Part shown: positions 51,688 to 64,000 of the stretch, piece after piece | How positions within the stretch are numbered: position 1 is the stretch's first letter | How the letters are laid out: each line of letters starts with the position of its first letter | Origin: Akkermansia sp. | Lineage (GTDB): Bacteria; Verrucomicrobiota; Verrucomicrobiia; Verrucomicrobiales; Akkermansiaceae | Direction: 5' to 3' | Assembly (NCBI GenBank): GCA_017477935.1 | Contig: JAFVIC010000065.1 | Span: forward strand, 62,001 to 126,000 | Length of the DNA: 64,000 nucleotides | Made by a program: the position numbers and the translations under genes | Notes under the pieces: model-generated | Told to the model about the DNA's origin: nothing | Database searches by the model: none | What the model saw: only the letters and a program-made list of their open reading frames with translations

Positions 51688-52737
51688 ATGAGAGCAAATT
51701 TTTCGTCCATCGTTGCCGCAAGTGCCCTTCTGAGCCTGGCAGCAGGGGCTGCCACACCCGCCGCCATCGAGGCTGAGCTGAAGCGACGCGCAGCCCGGCA
51801 GCAGACCGCACAGCAGCAGAATCGGCCCCGCCCCTCTGCTCAGCGTTTCATGGTGCCGGATCAGGAGAAGTCGCGCGCCACGGCTGAAACGGTGTACAAT
51901 ACGTGGCGGCTCAGTCTCATTCGCGGTAGCGAGCAAGCCTGGCGCTCCACAACATCCAACTCTCGCCAGATGAAGGTACGCAACCTGATTGTATCGCAGC
52001 GCGGCAGCTTCCCTCGCGATTACTTCCGCCAGACGCAAGAGGCACCCAAGCTCGAAAACTTTGCCTACGTTGGCTCCCTGCTCGGTTGCAACGGCTATAC
52101 CATGGCAAGCACCTACATCGGCAACGTGCAGTTGGGTAGCGGCAAAGCGGCCGAAAATGCCTTCGTGCTGGAGTTCGTTTTTGAAGGCGGGCGCTGGAAA
52201 CTCGACCAGACCCGCATGTTCAATCTCACTCAGCTGCCCGATGTGCGCAAGCGGCTCCGCGAGAAAGACCTCACTCTGCTGCAAGAGCAAGATGGGTTCC
52301 AGCCCTACGACCGAATCCCCACCACCCCGCCCGCGTGCAGCTCTCCCGTACTTATCGGCAAGGTTTTTGTAGATTGCCCGGGTCGTAACATTGAAATGAC
52401 CATCAACGATGTCTCCATGCACGAGTTTGATGATGAACGCAGAGCTGATGTCATTTCCGGTGGCCTCAAGCGCGGAGTCAATACCATTACCTACAAAATC
52501 ACTGACCGCGACGGGCTCGAACGCCCCTCCATGGCTATCGGTCTCTTCGTTGCTCCCGAAACACCGGGGAATTCTCCCATCTGCGTCTTCGACCACATCA
52601 TTGACGCTCAGGATAAAGCCGAGGGTGGCACCTTTACTTTCACCATCACCAACGATCACATCGCCTCCATGAACCCCAGGTTCAAAGGCACCAAGCCCAG
52701 CCCGCACCACGTCGTGCCGCTCAAACCCAAGAAGTAA
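51688..52737 (+). CDS. Secreted protein of unknown function
   Basis: A 349-residue protein with a signal peptide (MRANFSSIVAASALLSLAAGA). A short Gln/Arg-rich segment follows (RRAARQQTAQQQNRPRPSAQRF), then a folded domain (about 65-185) and a beta-rich C-terminal half (FVDCPGRNIEMTINDVS, TFTFTITNDH). The last residues are basic (PLKPKK). I do not recognise the family. It is probably periplasmic or surface-attached. Confidence 0.75.
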   Translation: MRANFSSIVAASALLSLAAGAATPAAIEAELKRRAARQQTAQQQNRPRPSAQRFMVPDQEKSRATAETVYNTWRLSLIRGSEQAWRSTTSNSRQMKVRNLIVSQRGSFPRDYFRQTQEAPKLENFAYVGSLLGCNGYTMASTYIGNVQLGSGKAAENAFVLEFVFEGGRWKLDQTRMFNLTQLPDVRKRLREKDLTLLQEQDGFQPYDRIPTTPPACSSPVLIGKVFVDCPGRNIEMTINDVSMHEFDDERRADVISGGLKRGVNTITYKITDRDGLERPSMAIGLFVAPETPGNSPICVFDHIIDAQDKAEGGTFTFTITNDHIASMNPRFKGTKPSPHHVVPLKPKK

Positions 52738-52900: not shown

Positions 52901-52929
52901 TTGACGATTTCTGTTTTATATGTTAAATA
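52901..52929 (+). promoter_or_regulatory. Promoter of the His-rich lipoprotein gene
   Basis: TTGACG (52901-52906) and TAAATA (52924-52929) are separated by 17 bp in an AT-rich stretch. The leader to the ATG at 52986 would be about 50 bases. The rest of the 248-base gap (52738-52985) shows only a small hairpin near 52830; no operator or riboswitch is evident. Confidence 0.6.
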
Positions 52930-52985
52930 ATTACTGTTTTCAAACTTAACAACCATTTAACAATCATCAACCATACCTCATCATC

Positions 52986-53144
52986 ATGAAGAATAAATTA
53001 GCCATAGCCGTCGTTGCAGCGCTGAGCCTGCTGGGACTGAGCGCCTGCCACCATCATCACCACAGTTATCGCAGCCACCACGGCCATCACCACAGTTTCC
53101 ATCACAGGCCGCCGCATCATGGTTTCCACGGTCCGCACCACTGA
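52986..53144 (+). CDS. 52-residue His-rich lipoprotein
   Basis: A very short gene flanked by a promoter and an intrinsic terminator. The signal peptide (MKNKLAIAVVAALSLLGLSA) ends in a lipobox L-S-A-C with Cys21. The mature peptide of 32 residues has 17 His, in clusters CHHHHH, SHHGHHH, FHHRPPHH and FHGPHH. It would be a membrane-anchored metal-binding peptide (zinc, nickel or copper), perhaps a periplasmic store or chaperone. No metal-responsive operator is evident. The isolated, self-contained transcription unit argues that it is a real gene. Confidence 0.8.
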   Translation: MKNKLAIAVVAALSLLGLSACHHHHHSYRSHHGHHHSFHHRPPHHGFHGPHH

Positions 53145-53155
53145 TTCGGTAAGCC

Positions 53156-53190
53156 AAAGAGGTACGAAGCCAGACTTCGTACCTCTTTCT
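53156..53190. terminator. Intrinsic terminator between the His-rich lipoprotein and antiporter genes
   Basis: A 14-bp perfect stem, AAAGAGGTACGAAG (53156-53169) with CTTCGTACCTCTTT (53175-53188), has a 5-base loop. It is followed by T-rich sequence on plus and lies just after the converging antiporter gene on minus, so it may serve both strands. Confidence 0.9.
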
Positions 53191-57815: not shown

Positions 57816-57844
57816 TTGACATTGGAATAACGTAAGCGTAAATA
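57816..57844 (+). promoter_or_regulatory. Promoter of the secreted protein gene at 57854 (near-leaderless)
   Basis: TTGACA (57816-57821) and TAAATA (57839-57844) are separated by 17 bp, with 9 bases to the ATG at 57854. Confidence 0.7.
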
Positions 57845-58384: not shown

Positions 58385-59251
58385 ATGAAACACACAACAC
58401 GCACCATACTGAGCCTGGGCATGCTTGCCCTGGCACCGCTTACATTCGCACAGGAAGCCCCCGCCCCGGCTCCTGCTCCGGCTCCCGCTCCGGCTCCCGC
58501 TCCGGCTCCTGCTCCGGCTCCCGCTGCCACCCCCTCTCCCGAAGAGATTAAGGTAGTGTTCTCCTACCTGATGGGGCAGCAGTACGGCAACCAGATGGCC
58601 ATGGAGGCCAACACTCTGCGTATTGACGACTTCAACGCCGAGGTCTTCTTCAAGGGCGTGGCCGATGGTCTGGCCAACAAGGTAGACCCCGAAATGCGAG
58701 AGAAAGACATCGCCGCTTGCATGCAGGCTTTCATGCTTGACCTGCAGCAGCGCGCTGCCGAGGCTGCCGCGGCCAACCTGGCCAAAGGCAAGGCTTACAT
58801 GGAAGAAAACGCCAAGAAAGAGGGCGTAGTCACCACCGAGAGCGGCCTGCAGTACAAAGTGCTCACCGCCGGTACCGGCCGCAAATATGATGCCGAGAAG
58901 GACGGCTCTGCCGCCATTGCCTCCGTAACCTACGAAGGTCGCCTGGTGGACGGCACGGTATTCGATGCCAGCGCCACTCCCGTAGACATGCCGCTCAACG
59001 GCGTCATCCCCGGCTTCTCCGAGGCAATCAAGCTCATGCCCATCGGCTCTGAGTGGGAGGTAACCATCCCCGCCAACCTGGCCTACGGTGAGCAGGGCCC
59101 CGGCGTCATCGGCAACAACGCCACCCTCGTCTTCAAGCTCAAGCTCGTGGACATCAAGCCCGGTCGCGGCACCCAGGGCAACCCCATCCAGCTCACCCCT
59201 GAGATGCTCCAGCAGCTCCAGGAGAGCGGCATGCAGCCCGTTGGTCAGTAA
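58385..59251 (+). CDS. FKBP-type peptidyl-prolyl cis-trans isomerase, periplasmic
   Basis: A 288-residue protein with a signal peptide (MKHTTRTILSLGMLALAPLTFA). An Ala-Pro repeat linker (about 25-47) follows, then an FKBP N-terminal dimerisation-like helical region (about 50-145) and a C-terminal FKBP domain (about 155-262: LQYKVLTAGTGR, VTYEGRLVDGTVFDA, IPGFSEAIKLMPIGSEWEVTIPANLAYGEQGPG, LVFKLKLVDI). This is the FkpA/Mip layout, a periplasmic folding helper. It is terminated by an intrinsic hairpin. Confidence 0.93.
   Translation: MKHTTRTILSLGMLALAPLTFAQEAPAPAPAPAPAPAPAPAPAPAPAATPSPEEIKVVFSYLMGQQYGNQMAMEANTLRIDDFNAEVFFKGVADGLANKVDPEMREKDIAACMQAFMLDLQQRAAEAAAANLAKGKAYMEENAKKEGVVTTESGLQYKVLTAGTGRKYDAEKDGSAAIASVTYEGRLVDGTVFDASATPVDMPLNGVIPGFSEAIKLMPIGSEWEVTIPANLAYGEQGPGVIGNNATLVFKLKLVDIKPGRGTQGNPIQLTPEMLQQLQESGMQPVGQ
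58457..58525 (+). repeat. In-frame tandem Ala-Pro repeat
   Basis: GCT-CCx units, nearly identical 12-base copies in part (GCTCCGGCTCCC), encode about 11 Ala-Pro dipeptides in the FKBP linker. The unit length is a multiple of three, so copy-number change would not shift the frame. Confidence 0.85.
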
Positions 59252-61170: not shown

Positions 61171-61199
61171 TTGACAGGGAAAATCGGGACTTTTATAAT
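61171..61199 (+). promoter_or_regulatory. Consensus promoter of the metal ABC importer operon (leaderless)
   Basis: TTGACA (61171-61176) and TATAAT (61194-61199) are separated by 17 bp, a perfect consensus promoter. The -10 box ends 7 bases before the ATG at 61207. An 8-bp palindrome GTACGTAC lies just upstream (61147-61154) and could be an operator half, but this is weak evidence. Confidence 0.9.
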
Positions 61200-61206
61200 A
61201 GAGGGC

Positions 61207-62064
61207 ATGAAAAAAATGCTCTGCCTGCTGCTGTTGATGCTGGGGATGTCAGTTACCCAGGCGGCTCCGCTGAAAATAGCCAGTCTGCACCCGCTGCTGA
61301 GTGAAATGGCACGTACACTGGGTGGTGAGCAAGTTGAAGTTGTTAATTTGTTCCCGCAGAACGGCGATTTACACGCATTCACCCCTACCGGTCGCGAGCT
61401 GGCTGCAGCAGCAGATGCCCGCCTGCTGCTGGCCTGTGGAAAGGGGGTAGAACCCTATCTGGCAGATTTGCGGGATAGTGTAAAGGCCACCACGCAAATT
61501 ATTGAAGTCGGCGCTGAAGTGCCCGATGTGCGCGTGCCCGGTACACACCACGCGGACCCGCACTGGTGGAACACCCCGGAAAACATGAAGCGCGCCTCCC
61601 GCACGCTGTTGAAAGCCATGCAGCAGGCCGCCCCCGAACATGCAGCTTTCTTCGCCACAGGCCAGGCCCGATATGCTGCTGATATGGAGCAGCTCAACCG
61701 CACGGCCCGACTGAAACTCAGCCGTATACCGCAAAACGCCCGCTGTCTGGTGACAGGTCATGCTGCCATGTGCCACTTCTGCAAGGCCTATCATTTCACC
61801 CCCATCGCCATACAGGGCGTAGCCAGGGAAAGCCAGGGCGACCCCGCCACGCTGGCGGCCCTGCTGGCAGAACTGCGCTCCCGCAACGCCCGCTGCATCT
61901 TCACCGATGTGAACAGCACGCCGCGTGCTCTGCAAGCAATTGCTGACCAACTGGGTATACCTACCGCACCCCTGGTAATGGACGGCATATATCCGGCCGC
62001 CGCGAGCTACCGTGAGCTATTCTTGCATAATCTCAACACCATCTGCGAGCACCTGGGTAAATGA
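61207..62064 (+). CDS. Metal ABC transporter substrate-binding protein (ZnuA-like, Zn/Mn)
   Basis: A 285-residue periplasmic binding protein of the zinc/manganese cluster. The signal peptide is MKKMLCLLLLMLGMSVTQA. Metal-ligand candidates are His56 in GDLHAFTPTG, His119 in ADPHWWNTPE, the His in VTGHAAMCHF and an acidic residue in CIFTDVNSTP. The His-rich loop of typical ZnuA is absent. Zinc versus manganese cannot be decided. ATG 61207 fits the leaderless promoter; an in-frame start at 61171 overlaps the -35 box. Confidence 0.88.
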   Translation: MKKMLCLLLLMLGMSVTQAAPLKIASLHPLLSEMARTLGGEQVEVVNLFPQNGDLHAFTPTGRELAAAADARLLLACGKGVEPYLADLRDSVKATTQIIEVGAEVPDVRVPGTHHADPHWWNTPENMKRASRTLLKAMQQAAPEHAAFFATGQARYAADMEQLNRTARLKLSRIPQNARCLVTGHAAMCHFCKAYHFTPIAIQGVARESQGDPATLAALLAELRSRNARCIFTDVNSTPRALQAIADQLGIPTAPLVMDGIYPAAASYRELFLHNLNTICEHLGK

Positions 62065-62486
62065 CCCCTGTTCTGAAAGCCACGTTGACTCTGGCCGGAG
62101 TAATTGCCGCCGGCCTGCCCCTGCTGTGGCTCACGACCCCGCCGCCGACCACGGTGCCACAGTCAGCCCCCGCAACAACTCCCGGACTGCGAACGATTAA
62201 CGCAAGCCTGTACTTCAGCGGGGAGCCGCACCGTATCACCCTGTGGCACGAAGCGAAAGAACTGGTGCAATTCACCGACCCTGCGGCTGCCTGCCACTTC
62301 ACACTGAACCTGCCCCTGGAGAACAGCACGGAAATCGAGTTCGAGATTGAGTGGCCCGACAACACGCCCGGCATGAAAGGCGCTACCCTGTACCTGGAAC
62401 CCGATGGTCTTGAACAGAAGGGCGAGTCCATGTGGACTATGCCCGAAGATTCCACCGTGCACGATATTTTCTACTTCACATGGTAA
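62061..62486 (+). CDS. Small membrane-anchored protein in the metal importer operon
   Basis: A 141-residue protein with one N-terminal membrane anchor (VLKATLTLAGVIAAGLPLLWL). A Pro/Thr linker and a beta-rich domain follow (LRTINASLYFSGEPHRITLWH, CHFTLNLPLENSTEIEFEIEW). The family is not recognised. The start overlaps the binding-protein stop by 4 bases and the stop overlaps the ATPase start, so it is translationally built into the operon. It might be an extra periplasmic component. Confidence 0.7.
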   Translation: MTPVLKATLTLAGVIAAGLPLLWLTTPPPTTVPQSAPATTPGLRTINASLYFSGEPHRITLWHEAKELVQFTDPAAACHFTLNLPLENSTEIEFEIEWPDNTPGMKGATLYLEPDGLEQKGESMWTMPEDSTVHDIFYFTW

Positions 62487-63259
62487 GCGAACACGACCAC
62501 ATCTGCTGGGGCGGAGGCCACCACCACAGCGGCGGGCATACGCTCGCGGTTGAGGGGCTCTGTGCGGCTTACGGCAAAACAGCGGTGCTCAGCGACATCA
62601 GTTTCAGCGCCTCATGCGGGCAAACCATGGCCCTCATCGGCCCGAACGGCGCAGGCAAATCCACCCTGCTCAACCTGCTGGCCGGGCTTATGCAACCCAC
62701 TGCCGGCGCCATGAGCTGGAATGGGGTTCCCCTGCACTCCATGCGGCACGAAACCGCCTTCATGCCGCAACGCACAGAGGTGGACTGGCGATTCCCCATC
62801 ACCGTGCGCGACCTGGTAGAGATGGGGCGCTATCCGTCCACGGGTATCTGGCGGAGCCTGCGGCGCCACGATATCGAAATAGTCGACAAAGCGCTCGATA
62901 CCCTCGAGCTGACGGAACTGCAGCACCGCCAAATCGGGGCGCTCTCCGGCGGGCAGCAGCAGCGCGCCTTTCTGGCTCGCGCGCTCGCGCAAGAGGCACA
63001 CATACTGCTGCTCGATGAACCGTTCACCGGTTTGGATGTACCGGGCATGGAGTCACTGGCGGCACTGTTGCGCTCACTGGCTGAGGAGGGGCGGCTTATC
63101 ATCGCCTCTCACCACGACCTGAGTACCGCGGCTCAGATATTCGACCACAGCCTGCTGCTCAACAACCGCGCCATTGCCTTCGGCCCCACAGCCGGGGTAC
63201 TCCATGAGCAGAACCTGCACACCGCCTTCGGCAAACGCCGCCTCACCGTCACGCCATGA
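62480..63259 (+). CDS. Metal ABC transporter ATPase (ZnuC-like) with a His-rich N terminus
   Basis: A 259-residue ATPase. Walker A is GPNGAGKST, the signature is GALSGGQQQRAFLARAL, Walker B is ILLLDEPFTGLD, and the H-loop is IIASHHDLST. The first 20 residues are His-rich (EHDHICWGGGHHHSGGHT, six His and a Cys), which is unusual for the family and would fit metal sensing or metal delivery at the cytosolic face. ATG 62480 overlaps the previous stop. Its stop overlaps the permease start. Confidence 0.9.
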   Translation: MVSEHDHICWGGGHHHSGGHTLAVEGLCAAYGKTAVLSDISFSASCGQTMALIGPNGAGKSTLLNLLAGLMQPTAGAMSWNGVPLHSMRHETAFMPQRTEVDWRFPITVRDLVEMGRYPSTGIWRSLRRHDIEIVDKALDTLELTELQHRQIGALSGGQQQRAFLARALAQEAHILLLDEPFTGLDVPGMESLAALLRSLAEEGRLIIASHHDLSTAAQIFDHSLLLNNRAIAFGPTAGVLHEQNLHTAFGKRRLTVTP

Positions 63260-64000
63260 ATGAGTTTCTGCAATTTCTCACTGAACCGATTGCCCTGCGC
63301 AGCCTGTGGGCCTGCGCCGTCATCGGTTTTGCCAACGGTTTCGTGAGCGCACTGGTGGTGCTTCGGCGCTCATCGCTGCAGATTGGCACGATATCCTGCG
63401 CCCTGCTGCCGGGTATAGCCCTGGCCATCCTGCTCTTCGGCTTCATGCAGCTGAGCATCCTTATCGGTGCCGTCATTGCCGGGCTGATGGTGGGGCTGGG
63501 CTCACTATTCATTGCCCGAAGCGGCAAGGCCGACCACGACACAGCGCTCTCCATCCTGCACACTACGGCCTTCGCGCTCGGCTACATCATCCTCATTCGC
63601 CTGGGCCTGCAGCAGAAGGTGGACGATTGGCTCTTCGGCAACATCATGAGCATGAGCAACACCGACCTGTGGATAGCCTGGGGAACAGGGGCCATTGCCG
63701 TGCTCGCCATCACAGTGCTCTACCGGCCACTGCTTATCTGCCTTTTTGACCCACGCGCAGCAACGGCCATGGGCATACCTACCCGAGCCTTCAGCTACGG
63801 CATCTTCGCGCTTATCATTCTGGTGCTGGTGTCCTCCCTTCAGGCGGTGGGAGCCTTCCTGACCCTGGGGCTGATGGTAGCCCCGGCAGCCACGATGCGC
63901 CTGCTCACCGACCGCGCCGCACTCATGTTCTGGGGCGGCGGGCTCATCGGTTGCTGCGGTTCCGTGCTGGCGTTTTTCCTGTCGTACCCGCTCGGTTGGC
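63256..64000 (+). CDS. Metal ABC transporter permease (ZnuB/MntB-like), cut by window edge
   Basis: At least 248 residues, open to the right edge. The ABC-3 membrane protein has about seven hydrophobic segments so far. Family blocks are FANGFVSALVVLRRSSLQIGTISCALLPGIALAILL near the start, LLICLFDPRAATAMGIPTRAF, and VGAFLTLGLMVAPAATMRLL. It overlaps the ATPase by 4 bases. The C terminus is beyond base 64000. Confidence 0.9.
   Translation, partial: MNEFLQFLTEPIALRSLWACAVIGFANGFVSALVVLRRSSLQIGTISCALLPGIALAILLFGFMQLSILIGAVIAGLMVGLGSLFIARSGKADHDTALSILHTTAFALGYIILIRLGLQQKVDDWLFGNIMSMSNTDLWIAWGTGAIAVLAITVLYRPLLICLFDPRAATAMGIPTRAFSYGIFALIILVLVSSLQAVGAFLTLGLMVAPAATMRLLTDRAALMFWGGGLIGCCGSVLAFFLSYPLGW

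Follow-up and report, generated by a model that had tools for sequence, protein, structure and literature searches.

The Hrl protein (MG_149) of Mycoplasma genitalium is described as a His-rich lipoprotein with a role in metal starvation and in nickel acquisition via Fur (PMC6968530). In gastric Helicobacter, Hpn and Hpn-like are reported as nickel-binding proteins tied to urease and hydrogenase (PMC4671568). Metallochaperones can hand zinc to cluster A-I binding proteins, and the envelope zinc-binding proteins AztD, ZinT and PhtD may in this way supply a binding protein of the ZnuA/AztC type (PMC7463823). In Pseudomonas aeruginosa the His-rich stretches of PA4063 contribute to zinc coordination (PMC8561739). 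In the open-licence literature that we searched no description was found of a His-rich lipoprotein of Akkermansia, a prominent gut genus, or of the family described here.

The window, which is the whole stretch of 64,000 nucleotides analysed here, comes from an Akkermansia genome (G000) of 2.44 Mb in 113 contigs. The His-rich lipoprotein gene hrl is located at 52986..53144 (+ strand) and its translation is MKNKLAIAVVAALSLLGLSACHHHHHSYRSHHGHHHSFHHRPPHHGFHGPHH (52 aa). Residues 1-20 form a signal peptide with the lipobox LSAC, and the mature part, from Cys21, comprises 32 residues of which 17, that is more than half, are His; the translation thus bears out the 52-codon ORF, lipobox and His count of the preliminary description. 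Given the His background of 14 neighbouring genes (146/5354) the probability of ≥17 His in 32 residues is approximately 1e-18, and in a simulation of 100 Markov windows the maximum was 8 His per 30-residue open stretch, compared with 16 in hrl. The His residues are specified by a mixture of CAC and CAT codons and hrl is therefore not a simple triplet repeat. The features of a type II signal peptide are all present (basic N-region, hydrophobic core and a near-perfect lipobox with its Cys), and the genome encodes a signal peptidase II (PF01252, 110 bits). We infer that the product is lipidated, membrane-anchored and disordered. Pfam and NCBIfam gave no match to hrl above the cut-offs checked, the weak Pfam matches being to the signal peptide. 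The curated cut-offs of the named lipoprotein families LptM (14.8 bits for the window protein against a cut-off of 27.7), DUF4223 (no more than 20.4 bits for a cut-off of 27, limited to residues 1-26) and PG1828 were not reached.

With MG_149 Hrl the Akkermansia product has in common that it is His-rich and lipid-anchored, whereas the mycoplasma protein is of 32 kDa, has a Fur operator in its promoter and functions in a cell with no outer membrane (PMC6968530), as against approximately 5 kDa for hrl; the likeness is one of features, for which no homology is claimed. Small size and extreme His content are shared with Hpn and Hpn-like (PMC4671568). PA4063 resembles hrl in being exported, in its disordered His-rich stretches and in having, as reported, no homologues in other organisms, but its His stretches are borne on a ferredoxin-like fold (PMC8561739) and hrl is the His stretch alone. 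The AztD gene is located within the importer operon (PMC7463823), whereas hrl lies 8 kb from an importer of this type. No AztD/ZinT-type chaperone domain scored above cut-off in hrl. AztD, ZinT and PhtD are, moreover, much larger proteins with folded domains. Hpn proteins are cytoplasmic; in contrast to such nickel stores hrl has a type II signal peptide, and the urease alpha family was matched in none of 70 Akkermansia genomes, which weakens a reading based on urease and nickel.

Since a search with the hrl protein gave only weak matches besides hrl itself, gene position was used to find its equivalents. The gene is bounded on the left by g349 (51688..52737, + strand; 349 aa, no Pfam family) and on the right by a convergent gene for an NhaC-type antiporter (PF03553; 53192..54481, - strand), and we refer to this place as slot A. 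When each of the two neighbours was searched for in 59 Akkermansia genomes they were found adjacent in seven, five of which (G000, G024, G022, G080, G073) have a His-rich lipoprotein of 52-77 aa between them; the junction is empty in G007 and G032. Slot A copies beside the antiporter alone are found in G087 and G090, the latter at a contig end with a start codon that is not evident, and in G093 a small His-poor lipoprotein lies beside g349. In G087 a transposase-like ORF (L087 1779-2699) is directly beside hrl, at the expected place of g349. A second slot (B) is uvrA/rsmB, in which hrl is divergent from uvrA: among the uvrA loci of the best-matching 30 of 73 genomes six carry a His-rich lipoprotein (G006, G030, G065, G002, G088, G086), while the window's own genome has no hrl in this slot. 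Three genomes (G003, G031, G023) have one at other places. In total, at least 16 of 76 genomes possess a member, defined as having ≥30% His in the mature part, and the distribution is patchy. Most members were supplied by a profile search of the 76 genomes which at its threshold missed the window's own hrl, and the count is therefore a lower bound. A related-looking protein with 16-19% His occurs in G059, G081 and G083. A less His-rich lipoprotein family (AAGCHHHDRDYYRPGP...) was seen in three Akkermansia genomes other than that of the window (L095 1492-1722, L097 1396-1632, L101 1450-1671).

All 21 named loci found with g349 bear the name Akkermansia, Akkermansiaceae or uncultured bacterium, and many of them are of gut origin, the hosts being cattle, buffalo, goat, sheep, horse or rabbit. 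In the named genome closest by g349 (L111, 87%) the gene that follows g349 is dnaK-like, and both the antiporter and hrl are missing. Outside the genus a single-protein query of 22 genomes of the order, a search that is insensitive because of composition bias, gave weak matches only; eight of these outside loci were inspected and contained no His-rich lipoprotein, one (L003) having a short ORF that contains His but has no lipobox.

Substitutions among the members are strongly biased towards synonymous sites. The hrl genes of G065 and G002 differ by five synonymous and no non-synonymous changes, and the values of pS and pN are 0.63 and 0.11 for G030/G065, 0.79 and 0.17 for G006/G030, 0.71 and 0.19 for G006/G065, and 0.25 and 0.07 for G003/G031; for the related-looking proteins they are 0.49 and 0.22 (G081/G083) and 0.52 and 0.18 (G059/G083). 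The pN/pS ratio of the close pairs thus ranges from 0 to 0.45, indicating purifying selection; two pairs that include the window hrl are near saturation (pS 0.87 and 0.92). Because synonymous changes per site greatly exceed non-synonymous ones, it is very likely that hrl is translated and is subject to selection. Across the 17 aligned members Met1 and the lipobox Cys (17/17) are the only invariant positions, and identity in the aligned part is approximately 38-44%, versus 72-86% for the neighbouring antiporter and U32 protease in the same genomes. What is conserved, as judged from these alignments, is the predicted lipid anchor and the His content alone, and the sequence of the mature part diverges much more rapidly than the neighbouring proteins do. 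The preliminary description had made the standing of this small lipoprotein gene depend in part upon conservation in relatives, and equivalents do exist in Akkermansia genomes; since they keep their His content while the other sequence changes, hrl can be taken to be a real gene.

The genome has a single PF01297 match, a ZnuA/AztC-type metal-binding protein (61171..62064, + strand) that is encoded 8 kb downstream of hrl and is a possible partner of its product. It is followed by genes for an importer ABC ATPase (62432..63259, + strand) and an ABC-3 permease (63256..63999, + strand), the latter open at the window end. The ATPase has a short His-containing N-terminus, HDHICWGGGHHHSGGH, which requires a GTG start or the next ATG. 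Between the binding-protein and ATPase genes is a 141-aa ORF (62061-62486) of no Pfam or NCBIfam family, kept at the same place in four other genomes with 34-56% identity. The binding protein scores 128.9 bits with zinc AztC versus 124.4 with manganese MntC, both far below the cut-offs; manganese, iron and zinc proteins are among its closest relatives of solved structure, and its His segment is short (GTHHADPH). Of the 13 slot A/B genomes that were compared, a set with G090 and without the His-poor G093, five (G000, G024, G087, G006, G002) have hrl and the importer on one contig. The distance between the two is approximately 8-17 kb, their order varies, and two different neighbourhoods are involved. 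In the other eight genomes the importer is on a separate contig, several contigs being short, and it is absent within 12-14 kb downstream of hrl in G022 and G080. hrl shares an operon with no metal gene, and its proximity to the importer is suggestive, though no proof, of a link to zinc.

The preliminary description had also assigned hrl its own promoter and terminator. Its TTGACG-17-TAAATA element is present exactly as described (52901..52929, + strand), with TTGACG at 52901-52906, a 17 nt spacer and TAAATA at 52924-52929. The -10 hexamer is a poor match, and this promoter was not listed by a generic promoter scanner whose match count was at the chance level given by shuffles. The aligned position is nevertheless kept in relatives: TTGAC in 10 of 12 upstream regions and TAA at -10 in all 12. 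G022, in which hrl starts 23 nt past g349, was omitted from this alignment because it is without such a promoter. The promoter, whose position is conserved, looks ordinary and constitutive, and a pair resembling it, TTGAC-TAAAT, is also present at 57816-57843. The 5' leader (52930..52985, + strand) is A/C/T-rich with no evident Shine-Dalgarno sequence. An intrinsic terminator (53156..53188, + strand; MFE -20.7 kcal/mol) has the 14-bp stem previously noted, followed by a T-rich tail, CTTTTATTT. By a scripted criterion 11 of the 13 slot A/B members, counting the His-poor G093 and not G090, have a hairpin with T-rich tail after hrl; G080 and G088 fail. Conservation therefore supports the earlier view of a small lipoprotein gene with a promoter and terminator of its own.

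When palindromes were scored in the 12 hrl upstream regions no consistent dyad that might serve as a metal-regulator operator was found near the -10, and no motif common to the importer promoter (5 aligned) and the hrl promoter (12 aligned) was detected. G087 has a perfect dyad, TGATAAA-CA-TTTATCA, and G073 a partial one; as the dyads are not consistent among members and none is shared with the importer promoter, they were discarded as support for regulation. A genome-wide search with the promoter pattern gave 12 matches at ≤2 mismatches versus 5 for a reversed control, the only exact match being hrl itself, and no regulon was inferred. The only Fur-family regulator found in the genome (L136 1435-1899) is directly upstream of a sufC-like gene, which suggests control of Fe-S assembly.

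A role for hrl with metals is plausible from its composition and from the loosely linked ZnuA/AztC-type importer. We lean towards the view that the product, anchored in the envelope and disordered, serves as a buffer or holding site for a metal, most probably zinc, and supplies importers when the metal is scarce. The diacylated, membrane-anchored and intrinsically disordered peptide would face the periplasmic side of the envelope and would reversibly bind d-block metal ions, most probably zinc. When metal is plentiful it would keep the free metal low, and when metal is scarce the bound ions could be passed to an importer, for example the ZnuA/AztC-type system. Such a buffer would explain why the His content and the anchor persist while the sequence changes. 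Zinc is no more than a best guess, since the AztC and MntC scores are nearly equal. A more specific arrangement, which we regard as unlikely, is that hrl takes the part of the His-rich loop of zinc-binding proteins as a separate, lipid-anchored protein, capturing zinc at the membrane and handing it over to the binding protein; as only composition would then be selected, the gene would be free to relocate and diverge, though it would often remain in the wider surroundings of the importer.

The anchored buffer has to be weighed against other uses of a His-rich peptide in the envelope. Copper (or silver, nickel or cobalt) might be sequestered there for tolerance instead of zinc being supplied, as His-rich periplasmic proteins such as CopI are reported to act in copper tolerance (PMC13308877), and a constitutive-looking promoter would fit a standing metal sink. 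Against this, the hrl neighbours examined include no copper or efflux gene, and the mature part contains no Met, a residue characteristic of Cu(I) sites; we consider this account improbable. The His tails, with a pKa near 6, might also furnish a pH-switchable positive charge that buffers protons or binds anionic envelope polymers or mucin. It is composition alone that is kept in the mature part, down to the Gly, Tyr, Arg and Pro that separate the His residues, and the antiporter and two YkuD-domain genes are near hrl, all of which would suit such a role. The antiporter gene is convergent, however, and not co-transcribed with hrl, no antiporter adjoins hrl in the uvrA/rsmB slot, and one 32-residue peptide adds little buffering unless very abundant, so that a role in pH appears distinctly unlikely.

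That the ORF is spurious or decaying might be argued from its patchy presence, from the His-poor syntenic copy in G093 and from the G090 copy in which the start codon is not evident. The synonymous-biased substitution, the conserved promoter position and composition, and the extreme His content strongly contradict this, and we give it hardly any credence.

If metal binding by the anchored peptide is true, a minimal anchored metal buffer joins the known means of gut bacteria against metal limitation. Quite apart from function, hrl is a clean example of conservation by composition and not by sequence, and proteins conserved in this manner escape both length filters and profile searches.

Among other features of the window, an FKBP-type isomerase (58385-59251) has a signal peptide followed by a long Ala-Pro repeat.
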